Shown: piece by piece, positions 3,743 to 58,187 of the stretch
Layout of the letters: each line of letters begins with the position of its first letter
How positions within the stretch are numbered: the stretch's first letter is position 1
Source of the DNA: Citrus sinensis
Lineage: Eukaryota; Streptophyta; Magnoliopsida; Sapindales; Rutaceae
Reading direction: 5' to 3'
DNA: 64,000 nucleotides
Assembly: GCF_022201045.2 (NCBI RefSeq)
Contig: NC_068563.1
Span: forward strand, 28,679,001 to 28,743,000
Program-made: the position numbers and the translations under genes
The notes under the pieces: generated by a model
Told to the model about the DNA's origin: nothing
The model's database searches: none
The model's input: the letters and a program-made list of their open reading frames with translations, nothing else

Positions 3743-4504
3743 GAGAAATTATCAGCTATATATCATTAAATGACACTCGTATCAAACGTGCTATAATATT
3801 TTTTAAGTGTATCACTCGTATATCCTAAGTTGACAAAACACTTATGCCGTCCACCAATCAGTTAACTTCCGTTAGAAAGTTAACAGAATTGTGGTAAATT
3901 GACTATTTCGCCGTTGAAACTCAAAATAAGATAAAAATATAAATTTACTCAAAAAATTAACATAAAATTTTAATACACAATTTTTTTTGTTATTAACAAT
4001 ACATTTTTTATTCAAAAAATATGAATTATTAATGATACATATTATTAACAATTATCCATAAACAAATATTCATATTACACCATAAAAATTATTAACAACA
4101 TATCATTTATAATTATATATATATTATACCATACAAAATTCCAATTGGAGCTTGGAAGAGTAGATCTTCAAAAATTTAGGTAAAATTTTGGAGGAGTAGA
4201 TTCAGTTGTAAAGTAACTTTTTTAAAGTAATTATTAACGATTATCTAATAAATGAGATGACATGTCATGTTTATTAATATATATCATATGACATGTCAGT
4301 TTTTACTAGGTAAATGAGATGACGTTTTTTTTAAAAAAAAGACTAGATTACCCTTATGATGTCAGCACTTGCAAACAAAAGTTAACGGATTGATGGACAG
4401 CAGAAGTGTTTTGTCAATTTAAGGTATACGAGTGATACACTTGAACAGTATTGTAGCACGTTTGATACGGGTGTCATTTAAGGATATATGGCTAATAATT
4501 TCCC
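3743..4504. mobile_element. MULE-type MITE with long inverted repeats
   Basis: The first about 115 bases (starting GAGAAATTATCAGCTATATA) recur inverted at the right end (starting GGGAAATTATTAGCCATATA) with roughly 85% identity. Flanks are 'ttcatttta' (3734-3742) and 'tttatttta' (4505-4513), an 8/9 match that fits the 9-bp target duplication of Mutator-like elements. The interior is AT-rich and has no coding potential. Confidence 0.8.
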
Positions 4505-4654: not shown

Positions 4655-5793
4655 GAGAAATTTACAAAAATAATCATAAAATTTTTTAATTTTTTTAATT
4701 TAGCCCCCAAACTCTTTCCTATCATAACTAATCAAATTACTAATTTTTTGGAGCAAATAGTCCTCATCACTTTAAACAAATGTCATTCTTGCAATCTACT
4801 CACACTTTCAACACTCTCAACAAATCACCAAGCCTTATTACTCTCGACAAATTACCAGATCATATCAAACAAGCATGATATAACTGAAGACATAATTATC
4901 AATTGAGAATTGAGAAGTTTCTTGAAGTTAGTGTATGTTCTTGCACAATATGAACATTTTATGTAAAGATTAGTGTTTAGATTCAAAATTGATATGATTT
5001 TGTTGTAAATATTGTTATTTTTCATTCATAAAACAATGTAATTTGTTAAAGTGCCTTGTTTGAGTAGAAAATAAAAAAAAAATGAAAATGCTAGAAATTC
5101 AAAGTAAAAATGAAACACATATTTAACGAGATAAGTTAATTTTGTGAGACAGGAAGTCGGACAAGTGTCTATCTCACATAAACACAGAGCTGATTATGTG
5201 CGACAGGGCTCCTATCGAGCGCCTGCGTGTGATACATGCAATGGTCGAGCCTTTCATTCTTTCATCGATCACCAAATTTACTCTCCATCGCACTTGGTAT
5301 ACGTAAAACAATGCACACAACTCAACAAACCCCCCATCACACCTTCATTATACAAAAACTAAACATCAATTATGTAAGAGGAATTTCGTCAAACACCTAA
5401 TATGAAATAGTTATAACTCATTATTTTAGCTAAATTTTGTTTTATTATATCAGTCCAATAACCTATAATCATTTAGAATCCCAATCAAATTCACGCAAAT
5501 CATTAAAAAATGTTGAAGTTTGGTTACCTAGGGTTTGAACTCTTTTCAATTTTTTGGATTTGTTTCCGATCCATATAGATTATAGTGGATTTAGTTAGAT
5601 TTTAGTTCACCGTTGCCATTCCCTGTTCAAGAGCAAAGTTTTGAGTGTGGATGGAGATAGTTTAGGGTGTGGAAATGTGGAGGGTAATTTGGGGCAAGTT
5701 TTTTTTTTTGTTGGCTACTTATGATATGGAAAATTTTGAGGGGTTAAATTCAAAAAAAGAAAAAATTTTAAGATTAATTTTGTAAATTTTCCC
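4655..5793. mobile_element. Non-autonomous TIR element, 1.1 kb
   Basis: The left end (GAGAAATTTACAAAAATAAT) and the inverted right end (GGGAAAATTTACAAAATTAA) match over about 70 bases, including a shared pyrimidine/purine tract and 'gaatttaaccc'. Identical 8-bp flanks AAAATTTT lie at 4647-4654 and 5794-5801, although the word is palindromic and low in complexity. The interior includes a less AT-rich stretch (about 5150-5340) with a 72-codon open frame that resembles no family known to me. The superfamily is uncertain (MULE or hAT). Confidence 0.65.
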
Positions 5794-12699: not shown

Positions 12700-13829
12700 A
12701 ACTGTCCTTAAAAATCGAAACTTCTTTCACCAAATGGCAAATTTAAAAAGAAAAAGAAAAACCAATAGATAAATTAACAAACTTGGAGCCTTCAATATTA
12801 CGAAAAGTTATGGACTTTCATGATAGCTGCTCGATAACCATAATAAAAACAGATTATATATACCATACGAAACGTTAAATAAAAATTATTTCGAAAAAAC
12901 AAAAACACATAAAAACTCTACTGTTAGTGTTACCTATTTTGCCGCGGTGTTGGGAGTGAGTGTTTTGGGGAGTCCGAGGAAGTAATGTGATTAGTGAACC
13001 GATAATTCAGGAACGTTAAGAGTTTAATCAGAAAATTATTAGTGCGTAAAATTGAAGAAGGCTAATTAAAAAAACAAATTGAACTTTGGTTCTTTTGTCT
13101 TTCCATAAAGACAGAATTGGATGCTTCGTGTTCCTGCTACGTAAGTTGTCTTCCCGAACTCTTTGTGGCATCTAGTCTGGTGCCACGTGTGCCAAAAGCC
13201 GGTGTGTGATGTCACCAATTTGCCACTCGAATTTGTATCAATGAATTAAATTAGTTAATTACTATTTTATAATCCGGACGTAAACACAAATGCAAATTAT
13301 GCTTTTGCTAATTTGGTCTATTAAAGGCTTTAAATATTTGAAGAAAATATTTCTCTATTAAACGCTTATAAAGACCTCCGCTTACCAAGACTCATTTTCC
13401 ATACTTAGAAAATTTAGATTACTTACTTCTAAATATTTATATGACAATTTTCTTTTAAATTTTCTTACATCCGTTTCGACACTAGAATAAGTGAGTAGAA
13501 AAAAGAGTTAAATCTACTTTTTAATGTAAAAATGAAAATCTTCCCGGTTAAACTTATGGTTTTTTTGTTTCTGCAAATCAATTTAAAGATGGATGCAAGA
13601 GCTTTTAATTATTTTCATTATCATACGGGCTCACCAAAATGAATTTATTAGTACTAAGCATTAAAAAGTAGGAGTGGACAAAAAAATCATTGCCCACTAA
13701 AAGACTAAGCTTAACCGATGGTTCGGTTCAATTTAATTATAAAAATTAAAAAAAAAATTACATCAAATCGAACTAATCATTTTCTGCCGCCTTTACTTTA
13801 TTAAGAAGTCTTTCCACAGTTTATGTGAG
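12700..13829. other. Intergenic DNA upstream of UXS
   Basis: No gene is seen. A G-box (CACGTG) sits at 13184-13189 within a GC-richer patch (about 13130-13230), roughly 700 bases upstream of the UXS start. The last nine bases, 'ttatgtgag' at 13821-13829, are the left target duplication of the large element that follows. Confidence 0.45.
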
Positions 13830-14139
13830 GAGTCAACCTACCATGCAGCGCTGTATCTCATACAGCGCATGCATGCAACCGGTACAACCGGTTTTTAACC
13901 GGATAATATAATGAAAATTATATTTTTATTTATTTTTAATGTGAAAAAATTATGAAAAAATTTGGAAAAAAAGGATAAAATTGTTATTAAATGAGAAAAA
14001 AGATTGTAATAATTTTAAATTTAAAAATAGTACAAAAAATATAAAAAAATATAAACATGTCACAAAATAGTTACATTCCTACTTATTTTGTCACATTCCA
14101 ATATTTAAAATACATATTTCAAGTTTACTTTTCAAATTC

Positions 14140-16880
14140 TTATTTTTCGTGGTTATTTATCTAAATTTTGGTACGTTGTTTCAACTCGTTTTCCCACTAG
14201 TTTTTGGTTCCATACATCCACTCTTTTCATTAACTTCCAGCTTTTTAGGTCTATATTTCAAGTTATTTTTATATCTCTGTAATGTATTAAACTTTATCTA
14301 GTTTTTGGTAACTTATTCCGATTTATTTTTCTACCACTTTTTTGTTCTATATTGCTACTATTTTTATTGAATTTCAATATTTTGGGTAAATATATCAAGT
14401 TCAGTTTTTAGATCCTTACTTCTTATTTGAATTTATTAAATTCTTGGTAAATTATTTCAACTTTTGAGTTAATTTCTTCAACTCTTGTTCCTACCACTTT
14501 TTAGTTCTATATTCCTACTCTTTTTATTGAATTCCAAAATTTTGTTTGGATATTTCAAGTTCAATTTCTAGATCCCTATTTTCCGTTGGAAATTATCAAA
14601 TTCTTGGTCAGTTGTTTCAACTCATTTTTCCATCAGTTATTAGTTTTATATTTCCAATTCTTTCATTAAATTTCCAGTTTTCAGGTTGATATTTCAAGTT
14701 TATTTTTTAATCTCAATATTCTATTAGACTTTATCCAGTTATTGCTAAGTGGTTCCAACTTATTTTTTCACTACTTTTGGTTCAATATTCCTACTATTTT
14801 TATTGAATTCCAATATTTTGGGTAAATGTATCAAATTTGCTTTTTAGATCCCTACTTCGCGTTTAAATTTATCAAATTATTGTTAAGTTATTTCAATTTT
14901 TGGGTTAAGTTCTTCCACTCTTATTTTCAGCACTTTTTAGTTCTATATTCTAACTATTTTCATTGAATTCTAACATTTTGCTTCGATATTTCAGGTCATT
15001 TTCTAGATCTCGACTACTTGTTAAACATTATCAGATTCTTGTTAAGTTCTTCAAACTTTTAGGTTATGCTCTTCAACTCTTGTTTCCACCATTTTTTGAT
15101 TCTATATTTCTACTCTTTTTACTGAATTCTAATATTTTTTGTGAATGTTTCGAGTTTATTTTTTGATCCCTGCTTGTTGTTGGATTTATCAGATTTTTGG
15201 TAATTCTTTCCGAGTTTTAGGTTAAGCTCTTTAACTATTTTTTTCCAGCACTTTTTGGTTTTATATTCCTACTCTTTTCATTGAATTCTAATATTTTACA
15301 TAGATGTTTCAAGTTCATTTTTTAAATCTCTATTTATTGTTGAGGTTTATCAAGTTATTGGTAAGTACTTACAACTTTTGGGTTAAGCTCTTCAATTTTT
15401 ATTTCTACCATTTTTTGGTATTAAATTTCTATTCTTTTTATTGAATTCCAATATTTTAGGTAAATATATCAAGTTCATTTTTTAGGTCTCTACTTTCCAT
15501 TAAAATTTATCAATTTGTTTTGTAAGTTCTTCCAACCTTTGGGTTAACCTCTTCAACTTTTATTCCCATCAAATTTTGGTTTGATATTTCTACTCTTTTT
15601 ATTGAATTCCAACATATGGGTGAATGTTTCAAGTTTATTTTTTAGATCTCTACTTTTTATTGAAATTTATCAAACTCTTGTTAAGTCGTTCCAACTTCTG
15701 GGTTATGCTTTTCCACTCTTTTTTCACAATTTATTGGTTCTATGTTCCTATTCTTTTTATTGAATTCCAACATTTGGGTAAATATATAAAGTTCTGTTTC
15801 CAAACCATGCTTTCCATTAAAATTTATCAAATTCTTTGTAAGTTGTTCCAACTTTTGGGTCAATGTTTTCAACTTATTTTCTTACCAAAATTTGGTCCTA
15901 TATTCCTACTCTTTTTTATTGAATTCCAATATTTGAGTAAATGTTTCAAACTTATTTTTTAATTCTCTACTTTTCATTAGAATTTATTAAATTCTTGTCA
16001 AGTTGTTTCAATTTATGTGTTAAGCACTTCCACTCATTTTCCTCAATATATTGGTTTTATATTCCTACTCTTTAATTGAATTTCAATATTTTATGTGGAT
16101 GGTTCAAATTTATTTTTCAGATCCCTATTCACTATTGGAATTTATCAGATTATTGGTAGATACTTACAACTTTTGGGTTAAGTTTTTCAACTATTATTAC
16201 CATCACGATTTGGTTATATATTCCTCCTTTTTTTCATACTAAATTCCAATATTCTGAGTTAATATTTCAAGTTCGTTTTTAAGATCTCTACTTCTCATTG
16301 GAATTCATCAAATTCTTTGTAAGTTATTTCAACTATTGTGTTAACCTCTTCAATTCTTTTTTCCACGATACTATATTTCTACTTTTTTTATTAAATTCCA
16401 ACATTTAGGTGAATGTTTCAAGTTCAACTTTCGGATCTCTACTTTTCATTGGAATTTATCAAACTCTTATCAAGTTATTCCAACTTTTAAATTCTGCTCT
16501 TCCATTCATTTTTCCACCATTTTTTGGTTCTATATTCCCACTCTTTATATTGAATTACAATATTTTAATTAGATGTTTCAAGTTTATTTTTTGTATTCCT
16601 AGTTTCTTTTAATCAATTTCAACTTTATTTTCAAGATTTTTTGGTTACATATTCTTACTCTTTTAAGTGTATTCTAATATTTTGGCTAATGATCCAAGTT
16701 TACTTCATAAATTCATGCTTTCCGTTATAATTTTTCAACTTTTTAGTAAATTATTCTCAATTCTAGGTTAAGTTATTCCTACTCTTTTACACCTTACAAT
16801 GGTTTTATGTTCATATTATTTTCATTATATTCCAACACTATAGATACATGTTCCATGTCCTTTTTTCAACTAATAATAAT
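14140..16880. repeat. Tandem array of about 17 diverged units, period about 159 bp
   Basis: Each unit carries, in order, variants of 'ttttggttctatattcctac', 'tttttattgaattccaatat', 'tcaagttcattttttagatc', 'aatttatcaaattcttggta' and 'gggttaagctcttcaact'. The 'ggttctatattcctac' landmark recurs near 14340, 14499, 14637, 14775, 14935, 15093, 15252, 15410, 15572, 15730, 15889, 16049, 16207, 16364, 16521, 16636 and 16799. Spacing is mostly 157-160, with two short units. Units are about 70-80% alike, so the array is old. The period is 53 codons. Some units read openly on the minus strand (for example 15681-15872, rich in K, E, L and N), but others are frame-shifted, so a coding origin is unproven. 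Short open frames on either strand here are by-products of the repeat. Confidence 0.9.
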
Positions 16881-17179
16881 ATTACTTTTTTAAAATAACA
16901 ACAATATCAATAAGGCCAATTATATATAACCCCTTATTATTTTAACAAATATCAATTTACTATACAATACTGAAATTTTTTTATTGCAACCCTTTATCAT
17001 TTTCAACGTTTTGGGTCCTTAATTTAAGTCCTTTTTTTTAATCTTCGTTACTTCATGAGTTCTTCTAAACTTGAATTTATATATACTTAAGCTTTTAATC
17101 TTTATACATATTTATTATCATTTAATCATTTTAATTAATAGTATTTTGTTATATTTAAAAAAAATTATGCATTTATTTC

Positions 17180-19710
17180 CATCTTTCTCTTTACTTCTCA
17201 AACTAAATGCTTTAATTTTTCATAACTTCAACTGTAAATAAATAAATAACAATTGAGAATGATTGCAATTGTAAATGAAATTATCATGCCCTATTAAGTT
17301 ATCCAGTGCACTAAAAAATTAACCAAATCAAAATTTTCATCCATTTGTATATAATAATTTTTTACAAGCTTTTGGGAAAATAATTTTTTTATCAATTCGT
17401 TTAAAATTGTTGTCATTCTATTTATTTTCAAATAATTAATTTCTTTGACTTCAACCAAAATTCATTTTAACAGCTTTGCACGCAATTGTTATACTCCTCA
17501 AACATTTTATTTTTCAAATTGTTATGATCAAATAAATTATATATTTATTATACGATTATTCCATGAACCATGAAAATTAATATGTTATATCAAAGTTTTA
17601 AAGGTTGGCAAAAATGTTTTGTTTGTACTTGAAAGAGAAAAAAAGATTAAAAAATCTTTATTAATTATTTTGAGAGATTATTTTAATCAATTAATTTGAT
17701 TATCCATACTTGACCTTTTGACCTCTACACAAACGTTTGTTCATTTATCATTTCTCATTTTGCTATGAAAAATTTATAATTTGAAAAATAAAATTCTATT
17801 TCAAATAAAAAATGTCTAAATTCAAGTTTTAGATCATGATAATTTTAAATAAAAAATTAGAAAATTCTAATTCTTTTGAATCATTGTTCTCCATTTTAAT
17901 TATTTACGTTTAAAATAACCTTATAAATTTATTTTCATCTTTCTCTTTACTTTTAAAAGAATTTCCTTAATTTGTTATAACTTAAACAATAATACCATAT
18001 AAGGATGCAACCAATTGCTATGCTTCTCAAAAAACATTATTTTTTAAAAAGTTAAGGCAAACGTAAGTTATAACTTACAAAATATTTTAAATTAATAAAA
18101 TTGATGCTAATTTATTTGTATTAAAACATCATTTTTTTTTCTATCATTTCAACTTGATTAGATTTCTTTTTCTTGAACTTAATTTTGTATATACTTACTT
18201 TTGATGTTTCGATATGTTACACGAAAGTATACTTTTTTATCTTAAAAATAAATTATATTAAGTCAAGTTTTCAATTACATAATCAGTTCTTCAATTTTTC
18301 TGACTTGACTAAAATCATTTTTAAAAGTTTTTTACAGCTTAATTTGGTACTAAGAAAATATAACACTTTAACAACAACATTTATTGGTATGAATTTGGCA
18401 TGTCTTGATTGGAATGGCAGGTATTCTTGATTTGTTGCCATTCCTTTACAAATAAAATAATAAATGCCCTATTAATTGTTTGCGATGCACTAAAAATTTA
18501 AGTATACTAAAATTTTCATTCATTTAAACAGATGTAATAAGACAATTAGAATTTTTCACAAGCTTGTGACTAAATAACTTCATAAAATTAAATCAATTTA
18601 CAGCACAACTTCCACAAACTAAACTCCAGCTGCTGCTCATTTTAAATTTCAAGTGTCTACACATAAAAAAGAAAAAAATATGACATTAGAAAACACAATG
18701 CAACCATAAAATAAATAACAATATTTAGAATTTCAAATGCATGATCCAAATTCTTAGCTAGGATCAAATAAATTTGATTTTCAATAGAAAATTTCAGACT
18801 TTAATCTAAAATAAACACAAAAATATATTTTCATTAACATATATTTTTAAGGGATTTATTAACAGCAATATTCAAAATATAAAAATTACTCTCTACTTGC
18901 ATAATTATTCGATGCAACTTTTATGTCTACTTTCATTATTCAATGCAACTTTTATGTCTACTTTCATTTAACGACCAAGTGATCTTTGGAATAAAGAGAA
19001 AGATAACAATACATCAACAATTAGCAAGATCAAATGGTCTTTTATTCTTAAATTTATTGGCATTTATTTGCAAATAAAATTATAATGTCCTATTAATTTA
19101 TCCGATGTACTTAAAAATTAACGAAATAAAAATTCCCAATATACAAATGACAACATCTATCACTAAAGCAATTTGTGACAATAGTGAACTGACGTGAGGG
19201 CCACTAAAAAGTTGGAATTGCAGAAGGAAACGAGCCTAAAACCACTTCTGCTAAGAATTCTTTTTACAAGTTTGCGAGAAAATAGCTATTTACTAATTTT
19301 TAACATCAATAGAACTAATACAAAATTAAATCAATTTATAGCTTCCAAAAGCTAAACTTCAGATGCGACTAATTTGAGATTTTGATTTCATGGATCTCTG
19401 CATACAAGGGAAAAAAACAAATGATATTAGAAAAAAAGGCCCCAAAAAATATATATATTCAAATTTCAAATGCATGATCTAAATTCTTAGGCAGGATTAG
19501 ATATATATTGTTTTCAACAGAAAATTTGAAACTTAAATATAAAATAAACACAAAACTACATTCTAATTATAACATATTTTTTTGATGAATTTTTTAACAA
19601 CAATATTTAGAATATAAAAAATATTCTCAACTGGCGTACTCATTCTTTAAAACTTTTATGTCTACTTTCATTTAACGACAAATTGATCTCAGCGATAAAG
19701 ATAGAAGAGA
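17180..19710. repeat. Old, diverged large direct repeats
   Basis: A block around 18436-18960 recurs around 19058-19680. Landmarks are 'cctattaatt' with 'gatgcactaaaaatt' variants, then 'aatttcaaatgcatgatc', 'aaattctta', 'aaaataaacacaaaa' and 'cttttatgtctactttcatt'. The first landmark also appears near 17291, and 'catctttctctttact' appears at about 17179 and 17937. Copies are separated by about 620-1170 bases and are clearly diverged. No coding sequence is seen. Confidence 0.65.
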
Positions 19711-20584
19711 ATACATCGAAATAAATAAGAATAAATTTTAGTACAAATTCATGATTGCATGAATAATATACATCATGAAATAGCATCCTAATGAAAAGAT
19801 AAAAAAACGCAAAAGAAACTAAGCACCTAAAAAGAACTGACAAAAATTGTAAGCATATAGATTCATTCGTGAGTAAAACTAAGCACCTAAAAATAACTGG
19901 CAAAAATTTATCAGCAAATAGATTTATTCTTATAAGTAAAATACAGTCTAAATCTAAACCTTGTTTATTTTGGATGTATTTTACTATTTGTTTACTCGTT
20001 TATAATAGTTTCCACAACTTTTATAATTTATTTTGGACATAATTTATTACATCCAAACACATTGTTCAGGTAACCAGAGCACTAATAAATCACTAGATTA
20101 CTAATTACCATTGCATTTGAAAGAGTAGGAATATCTCTATTAATTTTATAGACTAATTTTAAATTTATCAATCAGGGAATAATGTAACTGCAAGTTTCCA
20201 TGTGCACATAGCCCACTCGCGTCTAACCAAATCTATCTCTCCTTGGTGTAACTCTTTGTTCCATAAAATTATAAAGTGAGGAATATATTAATTAGGCAGT
20301 TTCAAAATATAAAATAACTATTTCATAATAAATGACACTACATTTTCCAAAATAGAGACAACCAAAAAGCATTTAGCTACATCATTCATATGACATCCAA
20401 TACCTATCCATCATACACTCAAAAATGAAAAAAACTGAGGCCTAAAGTTTAGATTACTACCTCTTAATAAAAAAAAAAATAACAGCGTGCTTGGATACTA
20501 CCTTGCAAAATTGTACCTGCATATTACTAAAGAAAAAAAAAAGATGAAGTATAGACATAAGAAAAAAGAACTAAAGAAGATTCA

Positions 20585-21150
20585 AAACAGCATCCGAACA
20601 GCACCTGGAACTTTTCAGGTGCACTTTTAGCAGCAAAATTACAGCAAAACAGCATCTAAAATTTTCAAGTGTAGTTTCAATTACAAAAACAGTAGTAGAA
20701 CAACCCTTGAAAAGTTCAAGGTGTTGTTTTTGCCATATAACAACAGCTAAACAACACTAGAAACTTTCAGGTACTGTTTTTCTTTATAAACAGTAGTAAA
20801 ATATCACCTACAAACTTCCAGGTGTCGTTTTTCTACATAAACAGCAGCTAAACTGCACCTGAAAGTTTCCAGGTGCTGTTTTCCTGCATAAACCACAGTA
20901 AAACAGTACCCAAAAACTTCTAGGTCAAGTTTTTACTGCATAACAGTAGTTAAACAACACTCGGAAGTCAAACAACAATTAAGCAACACTAATACTTTCA
21001 GGAGCTTTGTTTCTACATAAAAAGCAGCAAAAACAACACCTAGAAGTTCCAAATGCTATTTTTACTATATAACAGCTGCTAAGCAGCGCCTGAAAACTTT
21101 AAGGTGCTGTGTTTCTACAAAAAAAGCAGTAAAAACAGCACCTGCATAAC
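20585..21150. repeat. Hairpin-forming tandem array, period about 51 bp
   Basis: About eleven copies of a unit shaped 'aacagcacctgaaa' - 'tttcaggtgctgtttt' - 'ctacataaacagcagcta'. CACCTG and CAGGTG face each other across about ten bases in many copies, so each unit can fold into a short stem, and the flanking AACAGC/GCTGTT extends it. Units run about 48-52 bases, and one (about 20950) is partly deleted. The array lies inside the 12-kb element. Confidence 0.85.
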
Positions 21151-22690
21151 AGAAATCAACCCATTGATAAAATTTTTTGCTCCACTTAATTCAGCATCAA
21201 AAACTTATATAATTGAATCAATCTTATGCGAACTTCAGCAAACATCATATGTGCATGAACACATTATTCCAATTCCAAACATAATCCAACTCTAAATCTA
21301 TGAGATCAAATCCAAAACACACAATCTCTAATCAATCACACAATTACAATCGCAAAAACATATTTTTTCTTAAAATTAATCTTATAATAAAAATATTTTA
21401 TTGATTTAGTGAAAAAAAAAATAAACAGAACATGCTTACCGTAGAGAGCTGCAAGCCTGCTATGCTGACATAAAGCCAGAAGGAAACAAAGACAGTCATT
21501 GTGCTTTTCATTTGTCTGCTCTGCAAACTAGCCCCGTTACAAAAGTGCCAAAAAGAGAAGAAAAGAAAGTTTAATTACAATAGAATTGTAATGAAACGTG
21601 TTTATAATAATAGAAGTGTCAAGTTTTACAGCATTTGTAGGCCATAACAGCTTTAATAGTTAAAAATAAAAAGCAAGTAGTTCTTAAAACATAACATGCA
21701 GAGATCTTGTCATAACATCAAAATTCCCAAGAAAAAGAAAATGTACCAATCAGACGTCCCCAATATTTTTTACTGCTTGTCCATTCTTGTCACTTTTCAT
21801 GTAATAATCACCATTCTCCTAGTAAATGTCCAAGATAAACTATAATTCTAAATTTGAAAATCGCTGAGAAGTAGGAAAAGGGAATTAATTCGAAAGTGCT
21901 ACCTCAAGAATATGCACCAACAATCTCTAATAATCAGTTGAGCAAGATCAAGTAGTTTAAAATGATGTGGTGAATCTGACTATGATAAAGGGGGGAAAAA
22001 TGCTGAAATTCAAAGATTTCTCGAATTTGGAACTGCATAATACCCAAATTCTTGTTCAAAAAAAAAAGTGCAAGAAATGAAGAGCATCCAAAAGAACCAA
22101 CCAAACCACTTGCTTCGTCGGCACCCCTCCAAAATACGTGGACATTTTGCAATAAACTAAAGGAAAAAGACCCCCAAAAACTTTCAATGCCAGTGAAGAT
22201 TATAAGTCCTTTATATATTGCAGAATTGGAGACTTCTAAGTAAAAAAAATCACAAAGAATCACATGAAGCTTTTGTCTCAATACAATATGTAAAAGATCA
22301 AAGCAAAAAGACATGCAACTCCATTGAAAGGCTTATTTATTTTTTAATAACAAAACTAAAGAATCCATTAAAATTGATCTTAAAAATCAGCAGCTAATTG
22401 GTGCCAATAAAAACGAAGCAGCAATAATCTAATATCTAGTCACGTAATTATATATATTGACAGTAAGAAGAAAAATATCATCACTCACTACCGAAACAGT
22501 ACTTAAAAACCTAACTCAAAATCATAAAATTAACCAAAAAAAATTAAATTTCTAAACATGCAAGCAACCTAAAATATCCAACAATAGCTATAAAATATAA
22601 AAAATGCCAAAACATAAGGTAATAAATTAAAAATCAAAATTAAAGCGAAACTTTAGCACAATACGGTAGTGTGCATAAATATACAGTGAA
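21151..22690. other. Interior of the 12-kb element, possible exon remnants on the minus strand
   Basis: No complete gene is seen. On the minus strand a segment ending at about 21441 is bounded by TTTGCAG upstream (about 21530) and GTAAGCATG downstream, and reads QMKSTMTVFVSFWLYVSIAG in one frame, so it looks like an internal exon. A second segment (about 21735-21825) reads ENGDYYMKSDKNGQAVKNIG before a stop. Neither was recognised. They could be pieces of a host gene carried by the transposon, or chance. Confidence 0.3.
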
Positions 22691-22698
22691 ATTTTCAG

Positions 22699-22962
22699 AG
22701 TGCTAAAGTTGTTAGCCAACCAGATTAGAATGAAGTGGCAACAACAGCGACAGCAAAGAAAGAAGGAAGCAGCAGCTCACATTTATGCCAAAAGATCCGA
22801 GTGCTAAAGTTGTCAGCCAACTAGATCAGAAGGAAGTAGCAGTGGCAGCGGCTGCCAAGAAAGAAGGGAGCGGCAGCAGCAAAGGTTTTGTGCAGCGGCA
22901 GCGAAAAAATTGATTGTTAGGTAGAAACTAAAAATTAGGGTTCGAGGGTGGGGCTATTTATA
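22699..22962 (-). promoter_or_regulatory. Promoter-like segment with a 101-bp duplicated GC-rich leader
   Basis: On the minus strand TATAAATAG (within 22954-22962) is followed about 30 bases later by AACCCTAATTTTTAG, a layout typical of plant transcription starts. The leader then contains two copies (starting at 22699 and 22800, offset 101) of a segment with CTTTAGCACT, TTGGCTGACAAC and a (GCTGCC)-rich stretch. It would transcribe leftwards through the rest of the element. Transcription is inferred from motifs only. Confidence 0.4.
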
Positions 22963-23321
22963 TTTTTTATTTTTTAATGAAAAACTGGTTTTGTTTTATA
23001 TTTTTTAATATAAACTTTAACTTATAAATATGATTTACTTAAATTGAAAAAATTTAATATGCATAAATAGATTTTGCCAAAAACTTTAATATGCAAAACA
23101 AATTTCTTAAAGCATATCTATAGACTACAGATTATATACACATTTTAATAATAAATGTCTACTATTGATAACAAGTATCTCAGTTGAGTTCATTTTAATC
23201 TATTTAAATATTGGCCAACAAAGTAATAATGGTTACTAACAACATAAAAAAATACACTTTATTATAAATCATTAATTTTATACTACTAAATTCAATCGAT
23301 AAAAAATTAGCATTACATTTA

Positions 23322-24976
23322 TGATGCGTTTACTTCATGGAATGGAAATTGGATGGAATGGGAATGAGTTGGGAATGAAAATGGGTCGAGAATAAGAATA
23401 GACTGGAATATGAATGAGAAATGAGAATGAGATTCTAATATTTACTTAGCTAAAATAAATGAGAATGTAAATGTGCTGGAATGTCACTGATCTGTTTATT
23501 TGGCAAAATAAATGGGAATAAGAAATGAGAATGAGAATCAATTTACCAAAATACCCATAATATTAAATAATGTAATTTTCATTAACTAAATACAATATAA
23601 CCTCTATAAATTAATAATGTCAGGACCATAGAAATTTATTAATTTAGAGAGATATTAATTAATCTATAAATTAATAAATTATTAATTTATAGAGTGTGTT
23701 CACAGTACAAAGAACTAACATTTAATTAATTGAAAATTCATTGTATTTTACAAATATAATCAATAGAATTTAAATAAATTCATCAAATAAATAATGTATA
23801 CTTGATTAAATAAATTTATGAATTTTACTAAATGTATTCAATGAACTAAACTAAATGTTAGTTATTAAATTGTTTGAATTAAAACTAATCTAATGTACCT
23901 ATCTACTTGATTAACTAAATTCATGTATTTACATAAATTTATCTAAATGTATTCAATGAACTAAACTAAATGTTAGTTATTAAATTGCATTAATTGAATT
24001 TGAACTAATTCATCTAATGTACCTATCTACTTGATTAACTAAATTCATGTATTTACATAAATTTATCTAAGTGTATTCAATGAACTAAAATAAATGTAAT
24101 TTCATTAAATTGTATCAATTGAATTTGACTACTTATCTACGTAATTAAAGAGTATTCATGTATTTACATAATTTAGCTAAGTCATAAATCCAATGAACTA
24201 AATTAGAAATTAAATGTATTTAATGAATTAAGTTAAAATTATTGTCTATATAAACAAACACAAAGTATTCTTTTATTTCATAGTAACTTGTTAACTTGTT
24301 AAAAATTAAAGATGAGATTCAACTAGATTTAAACTTCAAGAAAAAACAAGTTACAATAGACTCATATTTTAATAAATTGACATAGTCAGTTACATTTGTA
24401 ATTTCACAGTATTTATAATTTCTACAATTATTAATTTATGATATAAATGTGACCATAGAGTTATATAGGAGTTCTCAAAAAAATTATCTTATTAATTTAT
24501 CGAAATTATTAATTTAGCTTCAGGGCCTAAGTCGGGACTGCAAAAAATTATTATATTAATAATTTATCGAGTATTAATTTATAGAGTATTAATTTATAGA
24601 GGTTATACTGTATTTGTATAAATATTATTATAAAAATGATATTAATTAAAAAAATAAAATTAATAATAATAAATGTTAATAATGATAATATTAATAAAAA
24701 TAATAATAACAATAATTAATAATAAAGTTAATAAAATTTAATAATAATAATGACAAAATTTAATAATAATAATAATAATAATGACATTTAAAATAATAAA
24801 ATTAATTGTGCTTTGAACGAGGATAATTTGGAAAATATAAAAAAATTATAGGGATACAAAATTATGTGGGACCCACATATTTTATTTTTATTCTCAAATT
24901 ACATTTTACTAAGTAAATATGAGTTTCATTCACATTCCTTCATTCTCATTTCCTAAATACTCAAGTAAACACACCA
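23322..24976. mobile_element. PIF/Harbinger-like non-autonomous element
   Basis: Ends are TGATGCGTTTACTT (left) and inverted TGGTGTGTTTACTT (right), 12 of 14 alike, flanked on both sides by TTA (23319-23321 and 24977-24979). That is the TWA target duplication of PIF/Harbinger. Subterminal regions are rich in 'gggaatgagaatgag' words on the left and their complement on the right. Without the element inserted inside it, it would be about 630 bases long. The interior at about 24620-24790 is (AAT)-rich. Confidence 0.65.
23593..24610. mobile_element. Emigrant/pogo-like (Tc1/mariner) MITE nested in the PIF-like element
   Basis: Both ends read CARTATAACCTCTATAAATT when viewed inward (left from 23593, right inverted from 24610), with TA on each side (23591-23592, 24611-24612). 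Arabidopsis Emigrant MITEs, mobilised by the pogo-like Lemi1, begin with a very similar CAGTA.AACCTCTATAAATT and also insert into TA. Repeated 'attaatttatagag' words near both ends are also typical. No transposase frame remains. Confidence 0.75.
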
Positions 24977-25833
24977 TTAATGTATAGACATGTCTATTAT
25001 AAGTATTTAAGAAAATATTATCATTTGAAAATAGTGAATCAATATAACCATCAAAATAATGCAGTATAAAAGAATAAATTAATTTCACATAGGTTTGTAT
25101 GAATTAATTTGCATAAGAGATTGAGATACATTAAATCTGCCTATATATATCATATAATAATATTGGCCAATAGCAATAAATTAATAATAAAAAAACAATA
25201 ATATTTGATTGATAATTATAATGTTTGGTATAATTAACAAGATAATTAATTAAAAAAAAACAAGATACTTTTTTGATAATTATCCAAAAGTTAGACAAAA
25301 ATTATTCTCATATTAGTGGGTAGAGGTTTGAATCACTTTATATGTATTATCGGATTGATTTCTTTCAATTATTTGAAAATAAATTTGATTAATTAGTGAT
25401 CTAAATATTTAGATTGCATTGACCTATACAAAATTAATAAAATATTATGATAAATTTTTATGCAAAAAATTACTAAATTTATAAATGTATTAAAATATTT
25501 AATAATTTACAATTATATTTATTTATTTATTTATATTTCAATAATATTTGCAGTAGTAATGTCACATATTTTGAGGAAAAAAAATATAAGTTTCATTTTT
25601 TAAATATATTTTCATGTAAAGTTGAGGGAGTATTTGGTAGTTTTATAATTTAATTGATAACCTTGTTATATACTTAAAATAACGGTAGCTGTATGATATT
25701 TACCTTTAATTTTTTCACCCTAATCGATTACAATAAGAGATAACCGGTGGCCGATTATAAAATTAATTAAAAAAATAATAAAAATTGGCTGTACCAGATA
25801 CAGCGATGTATTGCAGGCCGACCCTTATGTGAC

Positions 25834-26114: not shown

Positions 26115-26186
26115 GTGGCTGTAGTTTAGTGGTAAGAATTCCACGTTGTGGCCGTGGAGACCTGGGCTCGAATCCCAGCAGCCACA
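26115..26186 (+). tRNA. tRNA-His (GUG)
   Basis: A 72-base sequence that folds as a complete cloverleaf: acceptor GTGGCTG/CAGCCAC with discriminator A, anticodon stem CCACG/CGTGG around the loop TTGTGGC, and T arm with GGGCTCGAATCCC. The anticodon GTG (26148-26150) decodes histidine. There is no intron. The extra 5' G of mature tRNA-His is added after transcription. Internal box A and box B are intact, so the gene looks functional. Confidence 0.96.
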
Positions 26187-32465: not shown

Positions 32466-32547
32466 GTGGGCGTGCCGGAGTGGTTATCGGGCATGACTAG
32501 AAATCATGTGGGCTTTGCCCGCGCAGGTTCGAATCCTGCCGCTCACG
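32466..32547 (+). tRNA. tRNA-Ser (AGA)
   Basis: An 82-base class II tRNA: acceptor GTGGGCG/CGCTCAC with one G-T pair and discriminator G, anticodon stem CATGA/TCATG around CTAGAAA with anticodon AGA (32499-32501), long variable arm TGGGCTTTGCCCG, and T loop GGTTCGAATCC. This is the standard plant tRNA-Ser(AGA) form, with no intron. It lies 92 bases beyond the hAT element. Confidence 0.96.
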
Positions 32548-50301: not shown

Positions 50302-52651
50302 GGGTAATTTTTTGGATACCTCCCCTGAAGTTTGTCCTTGCTACACTTGAAGAGAATGTATGCATATATTGACATATAGCACCCCTGAACGTTTATAAGG
50401 GTTGGGATACCGTTTGGTAGTTAAGGATAGTAACGTAATTATAAATTTTAAATTTTAAAATAGTAAAAAAGGCCGTGAACTGATTAAAAAAAATCATTGT
50501 GCATCACAGTGACCGACTGAACCTTGCATATTTTCACTCATTTATCTCACTCTTTGATGTCCGTGTAAGGCACACATAATCAATATTAAATTTAAAAAAA
50601 TTTAAAGAATCTTCACTTATGTTGAACTTCTCCCTTATTTTCTCACAATTTATTGTTTTTATTAAATGGGATAATTTTTTTTGCTTCATGACCCAAATTA
50701 CATGCTGCCAATAAAAGACAACTCTACACTGCATATTTCTTGTAAACCTTAAGAAAAATTTGGAACTAATAATTTTGGGTATTGTTTTATCATTGAAGTA
50801 AATTATTTCATTTTCTTAGGAATCACTCACTAGCACGATCATAAACACCTCCAATTTATTATGAATTTATATATTTGGGTTATGTTATTCCACAAGTGGT
50901 TTAGGAGGTTTCAACAAATTATTTATAATCATAATAATAATAATAATAATAATAATAATATAATTATTTTTAAGTACAAATGTTTGTATTTTTTAAAATA
51001 TGTATTTCACTATATACAAGTGTATTAGTTAATTGAACAAATAATAATAAAAATACTAATATACTATATTATATATATATAGCAAATTTACATCTTAAAA
51101 TTTATGAGCTTTTGCACTGCGGAATGTCGTATTATATTATCAATATATTTGAAGTATAATGTTGAAAAGAAGTATCTTTTTCTTTAATAAGACAATGATT
51201 TAATAATTGTTGAATTTTTTAAGACAAATTATTGGGTTGAAATAACAATAAAGACATAAATACACTTTGATAAACTATAATCAAGATTTCATTAACTGAA
51301 AATAAAATAAAACTCACCCGCCCTTTTCTGTTTCTCCCATATCTCTTAATCTTTTTCAGCCTTGTTTTATTTTTTTTCAGCAGTTTCTTGCCCCGAACAA
51401 AATCAAATGCTTTCTGGGTTAAAGTGTCAAAAATAAAAATGATTGATAAAGTAACATTGGACTTCACGATGAGGCAATGTGAAGGGAAAAAAAAGAATTT
51501 TTTTTAATTTTATTTCTACAGTTTCTCTGATAATGGTGGTTGCCATTTCTGAAGAGAACCCAAGGACAAGGTCAAGGCATCCCCTTTTGCCTTCTGAAAA
51601 AACAATGCTCATAATGTTCCTATTGTTAATGGTACAAGGAAACCTAAAGGAAGATTTGTCTCTTCAAGATATTTGTCACCTTCTCCTTCTTCATCTTCAT
51701 CTTTAACAACAGCAACAACAACAGCAAAAAGTCAGAGTCAGAGCCAGAGATTTTCTTCTCTACTTGTGTCTCGTTCAATAAATTCATCGAATTTACCAGC
51801 TTTGGGGACTAAAAGATCACAATCTGTTGATAGAAGGAGGCAGGTGATTGGTTCTAGTCCAAGGGCTATTACCCTAGTTTCAAGCTCTAAGCAAGCAATT
51901 CAAGTCAAGAGCTTTCAACAATAACAAGGATGCTTATTACTTCAACTAGGAGCCTATCCGTTTCGTTTCAAGGTGAGACCTTTTCACTTCCTATTAGTAA
52001 GACTAAAGCTAAGGCAACTCCTGAGACAAGAAGAGGGACTCCAGTGAGAGATCAGCCTTGGCCGGGGAGGACCCAGCAAGGAAATCCTATTTGTCAAGGA
52101 TGTTGGATTCTAGTGTTGAGGGTAAGAAGTTCGTTGGGTATGGATATGGGGCGGGGCGATGGCTGAGTCGTGGTACCAATATTTTATTGAAAATGAGAGT
52201 AGATTGAGCTTGGATTTAAATAATGCTAAGCAAAATAAAGATGGCAATTTGTTGATGAATGAGATTGTGATCTTGTAACTTCTGATGACACTGATAGTGT
52301 TTCATCTGGTATCACCAACACTTCCGGGGTACCAGAATCTGGTGGTGCTGTTGCTTCGCGAATGAAAAAAATACATATTCACTGTTATTATGCATTTGAC
52401 GCCAAAAAACAACAGACGGTCTGCAACTCTGCAGCATTGCTACAAGTATTGTCAAGTCTGCAACTCTGCATTGCTACAAGTACTGTCAGTTGTTGTGCTG
52501 TGGAATGAAGGGTATTATTGTACTTTCATCAACAGAGCAAACGGCATCCTAACGATTATATACGTCCAGGGGTGCTATATGTCAATATATGCATACATTC
52601 TCTCTAAGTGTAATAAGGACAAACCTCAGGGGAGGTATCCAAAAATTACCC
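50302..52651. mobile_element. Pack-type TIR element (MULE-like) carrying a gene fragment
   Basis: The left end (GGGTAATTTTTTGGATACCT, then cccctgaagtttgtcctt, cacttgaagagaatgtatgc, acatatagcacccctg) recurs inverted at the right end with about 85-90% identity over roughly 120 bases. Flanks 'tatatatata' (50292-50301) and 'tatatgtata' (52652-52661) agree at 9 of 10, although this is simple AT sequence. The interior carries part of a QWRF-family gene (51533-52370) and, next to the right TIR, a tandem repeat of about 35 bases ('ctgcaactctgca..ttgctacaagta', about 52420-52490). The MULE assignment rests on end type and duplication length. Confidence 0.8.
51533..52370 (+). pseudogene. Decayed 5' fragment of a QWRF-motif (AUGMIN8/SCO3-like) gene inside the transposon
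   Basis: Pieces in different frames follow the order of a QWRF protein N-terminus: MVVAISEENPRTRSRHPLLP at 51533, then KPKGRFVSS-like, LSPSPSSSSS, ALGTKRSQSVDRRR, MLITSTRSLSVSFQGETFSL PISKTKA (from 51930), RRGTPVRDQPWPGRTQQGN, and near 52290 DDTDSVSSGITN. The family (DUF566) encodes microtubule-associated augmin subunits. The QWRF motif region itself is absent. At least three frame changes and several stops separate the pieces. No introns are evident, which fits the single long first exon of this family as well as a captured fragment. Recognition is from remembered family patterns. Confidence 0.75.
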
Positions 52652-52661
52652 TATATGTATA

Positions 52662-57291: not shown

Positions 57292-58187
57292 ATGAGAAAA
57301 TATCCGCCGTCCACTAATTTTTTACATTTTTTTTAAAAATACATAATTTTTTTATTTTTTAGCTGAAATCTACCTAAAGTTACATTTTTTTTTACTTTTA
57401 CACTTCCGTTTAGAATCCGTTAAGAAAACTAACGAAAACTTAAAAAAATAACCATTTTACCCCCAAAACGAAAATTACAATTTCATCTTAAAAACATCAA
57501 AAATAATAAGATTTAATGATGAATATCATTATTGGTACTTTAATGAAGTACAAAAAAAATCTTAATTACTAGAGATTATAACTCAATTAATAATAAAACT
57601 CTACTTATCTTAAATTCAATTGAAGATTTGTGAGATTGGCTATTTTTAATACTACTGTTATAATTTAGCATTCTAATTACAGACATATTTAAAAAAAAAA
57701 CCTGCATTTGATGGTTGTGGAATTAATTTATTTATTGACCGATGGGAAGTACAAAAAAAATCTTAATTACTAGAGATTATAACTCAATTAATAATAAAAC
57801 TGTACTTATCTTAAATTCAATTGATGATTTGTGAGATTGGTTATTTTTAATACTACTGTTATAATTTAGCATTCTAATTACAGACATATTTAAAAAAAAA
57901 AACCTGCATTTGATGGTTGTGGAATTAATTTATTTATTGACCGATGGGAAAAATAATTATGTTTAATCTAATTATTTTTTGTAATTTTTAAGGTGAAATT
58001 GTAATTTTCGTTTTGGGGGTAAAATGGTCTTTTTTTAAGTTTCCGTTAGTTTTCTTAACGGATTCCAAACGGAAGTGGAAAAGTAAAAAAAAAATGTAAC
58101 TTTAGGTGGATTCCAGCCAAAAAATGAAGGAATTGTATATTTTTGAAAAAGGTGTAAAAAATAGGTGGACGGTAGATATTTTTTCAT
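57292..58187. mobile_element. MULE-type MITE with about 200-bp inverted repeats
   Basis: The left arm (ATGAGAAAATATCCGCCGTC, later 'ccgttaagaaaactaacg', 'cattttacccccaaaacg') recurs inverted at the right end over about 200 bases with roughly 85% identity. Flanks 'taataaata' (57283-57291) and 'aaataaata' (58188-58196) agree at 8 of 9. The centre is a two-copy tandem duplication. There is no coding sequence. Confidence 0.8.
57546..57948. repeat. Recent 201-bp tandem duplication inside the MITE
   Basis: Copies at 57546-57746 and 57747-57948 both start 'aagtacaaaaaaaatcttaa' and end 'ttatttattgaccgatggg'. They differ at only about three positions plus one A in a homopolymer. They are far more alike than the two arms of the MITE, so the duplication postdates the insertion. 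Confidence 0.93.

Follow-up and report, generated by a model that had tools for sequence, protein, structure and literature searches.

The 12-kb element described here is very probably a very large non-autonomous MULE of the FAR1/Jittery type, moved in trans by a transposase of the kind that its partner-type relatives carry. It lies in the window, that is, the whole 64-kb stretch of DNA that was analysed (C8:28679001-28743000), and the genome searched with it comprised 299.7 Mb in 11 contigs. In the proposed mechanism, a relative elsewhere in the genome, with a matching terminal inverted repeat (TIR) and a left-arm array of units of ~160 bp, would make a FAR1-type (Jittery-like) MULE transposase. 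This partner transposase would recognise the ends of the non-coding 12-kb element and would then move it, leaving a 9-bp target-site duplication (TSD). The features of the element are collected in Table 1.

Table 1. Features of the element and of its borders, in positions of the window
Feature	Position	Strand	Remarks
Whole element	13830-25824	+	11,995 bp; near-full-length copies at C1, C5, C7
Left TSD, ttatgtgag	13821-13829		8/9 vs 25825-25833
Left TIR (5' type), GAGTCAACCTACCATGCAGCGCTGTATCTCATACAGC	13830-13866	+	28/37 vs right TIR; 33/37 vs C5 partner TIR
Left-arm array, 19 units of ~160 bp, one strand, T-rich	14073-16868	+	TRF and profile search; reversed controls 0 units
Patchwork segment with 51/102-bp array	20325-21364		relatives at C3:35.97 Mb and C8:9.18 Mb; 74-88% by piece
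51/102-bp tandem array	20710-20961		inside the 20325-21364 patchwork
Gene-like fragment	21421-22598	-	relatives L042 (C8:3.054 Mb; upstream and exon-like part) and L043 (C7:28.467 Mb)
124-bp tandem repeat, 2.6 copies	23824-24139		tandem-repeat detection
Right TIR (3' type), GGGTCGGCCTGCAATACATCGCTGTATCTGGTACAGC as minus-strand reading	25788-25824	-	210-bp end: 34 genome places, 9 at 95-100% including its own
Right TSD, ttatgtgac	25825-25833		8/9 vs left TSD

An earlier reading made from the sequence alone had proposed a unit of 11,995 bp with paired 37-bp inverted ends and a target duplication. All of this was recovered: the ends match at 28/37 positions, the differences being 6 transitions and 3 transversions, and the duplication ttatgtgag/ttatgtgac agrees at 8/9. 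The element lacks the long and similar TIRs of the TIR-MULEs (100-200 bp, ~95%); the match is 28/37 in the first 37 bp and the similarity is lost within 60. The tandem arrays of ~160-bp and 51/102-bp units were confirmed and a 124-bp array was added. Nevertheless, to call the element built from tandem arrays was an overstatement, as the three arrays make up ~28% of the unit by coordinates. The older large duplications proposed by the same reading are real and appear as internal duplications of ~78% identity, seen as cross-matches between copies.

Beyond the right end of the element, a tRNA-His gene (window 26115-26186) starts ~290 bases past the border and a tRNA-Ser gene lies at 32466-32547. 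Other inverted ends with 8/9 flanks were found at window 3743-4504, 4655-5792, 57294-58185 and 50302-52652, three of which start with GAGAAA; judged by these ends, the four stretches are candidate small MULE-type elements.

Regarding the coding capacity, no transposase is visible in the element, as had been claimed. The longest frames have 132 and 119 aa, and a Pfam scan of 10 of the 22 listed frames, including the four longest, gave no family at the cut-off. Judged by length only, no frame exceeded 136 aa in the C1 9.6-kb, C9 9.3-kb and C3 16.4-kb (right half) stretches, and none exceeded 171 aa in the C2 9.2-kb copy. The gene-like fragment is similar to pieces of L042 and L043 (81-86% by piece, 76-81% in longer alignments), and a 114-aa frame of L042 overlaps the end of the part shared with the window. 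It has the look of a captured host-gene piece, with promoter and first exon, lying on the minus strand. The segment previously described as promoter-like falls in DNA that is homologous to gene-like loci elsewhere. Frames of L042 are reminiscent of COR27/COR28, but two L042 frames had no Pfam match and one of them had no PDB match either, and we do not claim the COR27/COR28 name for the fragment. Sequences similar to the 51-bp array region occur at other repeated loci (C3:35.97 Mb, C8:9.18 Mb).

The element belongs to a family whose copies share both ends. With the left 200 bp we obtained 40 scored matches among 108 first-look candidates, at 94-97% identity besides the self match; their first aligned base falls between query positions 6 and 10, and position 10 is where the element itself starts. 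The right 210 bp were found at 34 genome places, nine of them (its own included) at 95-100%, and for either end the best matches start only a few bases away from the border of the element. Furthermore, a degenerate 34-base TIR pattern, searched with a tolerance of 3 mismatches, gave 75 forward and 75 reverse matches against 0 and 0 for the control. Together with the 28/37 match of the window copy, this is the kind of TIR expected in the MULE superfamily. At least 40 facing pairs closer than 25 kb could be formed from 80 of 97 typed ends, leaving 17 ends unpaired; the typed ends are 96 from two end lists and one from a fetched copy, many single ends being left out. Exactly 6,344 bp was the length of 23 pairs, one measured 6,413 bp, 8 fell at 9.1-10.7 kb and 8 at 11.9-19.4 kb. 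The 40 pairs therefore span 6.3-19.4 kb, unlike MITEs, which are short and usually below 1 kb. Of the 6,344-bp copies, two were compared and share 99.97% identity across 6,349 bases. The longer pairs contain extra DNA, which in the C3 16.4-kb copy, for example, amounts to ~4 kb.

Near-full-length copies of the window element were found on three other contigs. The C1 copy (11,938 bp) covers 11,995 of the 11,995 bp, the C5 copy (12,042 bp) covers 11,924 and the C7 copy (12,245 bp) covers 11,984, all of them at 0.020-0.025 substitutions per site. The C1 and C5 copies are about 97% identical to the window copy and both have a TSD of 9/9. Another six fetched copies, some of them fetched in part, covered 2,899-10,879 bp at 0.024-0.044 substitutions per site. 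Since near-full-length copies exist elsewhere, the interior moves as a single unit and nothing large is private to the window copy. Thus the copies with the same ends that the sequence-only reading had proposed to look for exist in number, with ends paired at fixed distances, and the element family that it had suggested has been confirmed as a large one, non-coding as far as scanned.

Some members of the family show unusual arrangements. For the C7 copy (C7:9372889-9385133), identity to the window copy is 90.8% over the left 2-2.7 kb and 98.5-98.8% over the remainder, as though its left arm came by exchange from a different lineage. On C5, related 3' ends at 25237387, 25253688, 25269989 and 25286290 are spaced by exactly 16,301 bp (region C5:25237387-25311791); by this spacing, the series is evidently a MULE piece amplified within a long tandem repeat. 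On the same contig, left and right ends (L031-L032, L023-L024) stand at C5:23671957 and C5:23841051, at the inner edges of a 169-kb stretch, and TCTCTTATG, shifted by one base, lies beside both of them. This inside-out arrangement is due to rearrangement, assembly or chance. A presumed element with two left-type ends at C3:39412907-39420524 proved to be an ordinary copy of 6,344 bp with an inverted piece of 1,274 bp directly beside it. In this region (C3:39407828-39420524) the inverted left piece is 100% identical to the adjoining copy's own left arm, which suggests that transposition was aberrant here or that a rearrangement occurred recently.

Target-site duplications were examined in 20 pairs whose flanks were fetched, and 15 of them have the perfect 9-bp TSD that is typical of MULEs. 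From the remaining five, two fit with the tip 2-3 bases off (8/9 by script, 9/9 by eye) and three were unmatched, and the best value among 380 mispaired flank controls was 7/9. Further TSDs of 9/9 flank the C1 11,938-bp, C5 12,042-bp, C1 9,588-bp and C8 6,344-bp copies; the TSD of the C2 9,245-bp copy is 8/9 by eye, and no matching TSD was seen for the C3 16,411-bp and C9 9,255-bp copies. In the 12-kb lineage, 3 of 8 pairs are without a matching TSD (C7 with 5/9 by eye, C3:34.53 with 3/9, C3:33.52 with 4/9), and the pair at C8:14.946 reaches 8/9 only after a tip shift of 2 bases. Overall, TSDs of 8/9 or 9/9 flank non-coding copies that measure 9-13.5 kb; in the 12-kb class the copies with such TSDs measure 12-13.5 kb, and in pairs above that length, which reach 19.4 kb, later inserts may account for the excess.

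An empty site was also found. The joined flanks of the C5 copy (254 bases) match C5:28058163-28058416 over their full length (1-254) at 99%, and this is an uninterrupted paralogous empty site with a single TSD. A further 20 places on C5 span the same junction at 76-81%. For the window copy, the joined flanks matched only its own two halves in the genome search. Therefore, the search for an unoccupied site with one TSD copy, which the sequence-only reading had advised, succeeded for the C5 sister copy and yielded none for the window copy.

Transposase frames are found in relatives with a matching TIR and, where the upstream part was read, the array. At C5:27419380, 160 bp into the right flank of the C5 copy, there is a TIR that matches the left TIR of the window element at 33/37. 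Behind it come, in order, an array of the same type and an uninterrupted frame of 859 aa with a FAR1 domain (PF03101) at 93-184 (E 2.8e-15) and a MULE domain (PF10551) at 305-399 (E 1.1e-29). The FAR1 domain is N-terminal to the MULE domain, as in transposases of the Jittery/FAR1 type. Stop-free 859-aa frames were also found at C3:18.68 Mb and C9:2.09 Mb; the three frames are 99-100% identical. Both additional loci have a related TIR (2 mismatches in 34), and the distance from TIR to frame is ~6.27 kb there and likewise at C5. The fourth locus, C3:34547932, starts 3 bases downstream of where the C3 16.4-kb copy ends on its 3' side. Its TIR differs from the 37-base pattern at 3 positions, its array counts 10 units, and its transposase, 69% identical, is split over two frames. 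Beyond this locus, the next relatives of the 859-aa protein reach at most 47% identity.

According to these matches, we infer that a transposase of the 859-aa type acts on the ends of the window element, and the relative at C5 is the probable autonomous partner. The 3' end of the C5 partner was not found within 15.1 kb and, apart from the left arm, its interior and that of the window element are unlike. Because of these two points the partner is called probable. The partner has a second gene on the minus strand, which we guess to be an ULP1-type protein; three of its frames gave no Pfam family and a fourth gave a weak HMG_box (E 0.0059), below the cut-off. Another candidate for the autonomous element was the one at C2:20250869, with transposase-like frames from 14.2 kb. 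It was rejected, since the last family homology is at 11.6 kb and frames beyond it probably belong to a separate element. Two long non-coding copies (C5:27407179-27419380 and C3:34531518-34547932) end ~160 bp and 3 bp from a partner-type left TIR. This nearness to the TIRs of transposase loci seems closer than chance, and is perhaps due to targeting or local insertion.

The left-arm array is shared by all the elements tested. By profile search the window element and the C1 12-kb copy have 19 units each, a 6.3-kb copy has 15, three 9-kb copies have 15, 19 and 18, and the highest counts belong to a C2 element (23) and the C5 partner (32). In all eight of these elements the array is in the left arm and on the plus strand only, and reversed sequences gave 0 units. 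The unit consensus of the C5 partner equals that of the other seven elements at 136 of 152 positions, and the window and partner arrays align with 810 bits (69.7% over 2,106), against a maximum of 38.3 bits for 20 dinucleotide shuffles and 30.1 for the reversed sequence. When the whole 64-kb window was scanned, all 19 units fell inside the element. Among six other fetched stretches, five had 0 units, the CitMule-like locus included, and the sixth is the fourth transposase locus, C3:34547932.

As the array keeps its place and strand in the partner and in the non-coding copies, it looks like an old feature of the lineage, common to the transposase-bearing relatives, and not like cargo. We infer that it works as a cis-acting arm (transposase binding, promoter or chromatin) and is not ballast. 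A bolder idea, which we put forward tentatively and hold to be somewhat less probable than its negation, is that of an array-armed MULE lineage. In such a lineage the one-sided and strand-fixed array of 15-32 units would be a functional cis-module that predates the split between transposase-bearing and non-coding elements, and it might permit the movement of unusually long DNA.

Other origins of the 12-kb block have to be weighed against transposition by this type of transposase. In the 64-kb window, 753 pairs of inverted 37-mers reach 28/37 at a spacing of 0.5-20 kb and 9 of them also have flanks of at least 8/9 (overlapping registers being counted separately), so in such AT-rich DNA the TIR pair alone is not decisive and the evidence from the genome decides. 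Two unrelated repeats facing each other by chance, with chance flanking repeats, could produce a pair like this one; the whole-length copies with TSDs of 9/9, the clean empty site and the end pairs at fixed distances rule out such a pairing, to which we give practically no weight. The block could also have spread by segmental duplication or recombination instead of transposition. The left arm of the C7 copy (90.8% against 98.5-98.8% in the body) looks recombined, related 3' ends are part of the 16.3-kb tandem array on C5, and some copies are without matching TSDs, all of which would suit this explanation. However, the site-specific TSDs and the exact empty site speak against it, and it is contradicted for the copies with 9/9 TSDs, which makes it very improbable as an account of the family.

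A closer rival is that the element is a non-autonomous MULE moved by a different transposase, for example a CitMule/Jittery-like one or that of another MULE frame. Transposases can act across related ends, and the genome holds many MULE domains (899 first-look candidates, 150 of them scored). Nevertheless, among the MULE loci whose ends were inspected, a minority, the matching TIR and the array occur only with the 859-aa clade. CitMule itself was rejected as the partner, because the CitMule-like locus has a different 5' end, beginning with CAACACCGATATTC, unlike GAGTCAACC, and 0 array units. We therefore consider a different transposase unlikely and maintain the reading of a non-autonomous FAR1/Jittery-type MULE moved by the partner-type transposase.

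The family appears to have been recently active. It offers both a conserved array and a matched transposase frame that is uninterrupted, which makes it testable what lets long elements move. Furthermore, should it prove to be one of sweet orange's hyperactive MULEs, it would also bear on bud-sport mutations.

Regarding the known systems, a literature search by family name or description gave no match at the level of titles and abstract openings, with supplements outside its scope. The names CiMULE1 and CiMULE2 are applied to sweet orange MULEs of this kind; the search did not find them. In the accessible text on sweet orange, 31 of 40 spontaneous structural variants are insertions of three MULEs, possibly hyperactive (PMC9832951). 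These are also Citrus MULEs, and the one size given there, 5,086 bp, differs from that of the 6,344-bp subfamily, a comparison by size alone. CitMule of clementine is described, in the part of the source available, with a FAR1 and MULE transposase, short degenerate TIRs, a 9-bp TSD and a length of 6.9 kb (PMC4334395). The present family is similar in being a Citrus MULE with short degenerate TIRs and a 9-bp TSD whose relatives have a FAR1 and MULE transposase. At C3:6.790 Mb, TTGTTGAAA stands ~840 bp ahead of a frame of 737 aa that contains a MULE domain, and the same TSD is given for CitMule_1 of clementine (chromosome 3, 6,785,326; PMC4334395), so this locus is, by its one visible TSD copy, the likely CitMule_1 counterpart. 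Unlike our element, this putative CitMule_1 locus begins with CAACACCG, is coding and has 0 array units; the termini thus differ, as judged on the 5' end of the CitMule-like locus.

Among the Pack-MULEs of Jiang et al. 2004, as far as the available part of the account goes, none is longer than 7 kb and most measure 1-2 kb (PMC6431247). The window element resembles them in having no transposase in the frames scanned and in its probable movement in trans, and the gene-like fragment between its MULE ends may likewise be foreign; in contrast, the family reaches 9-13.5 kb with a conserved array, and the source gene of the fragment is only putative. Grapevine has Jittery-like MULE families of comparable size (11.9 and 14.4 kb), Jitvine-1 and Jitvine-2, which have transposase frames; the source table gives no TIR for them, and their description in the section consulted does not mention arrays (PMC2528002). 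The citrus element is non-coding and array-bearing, and is set apart from Jitvine by description and not by sequence. Rehavkus, which in the portion of the source available is MULE-related, with a minisatellite 'in Cterm', a 9-bp TSD and a PHD finger, and occurs in arthropods and annelids (PMC6446971), also combines a minisatellite with a 9-bp TSD, but differs in the host groups, the PHD finger and the place of the minisatellite. The unusual features of the citrus element are its size, its conserved one-sided array and its ends without long similar TIRs; otherwise it works like a Pack-MULE or a non-autonomous MULE.
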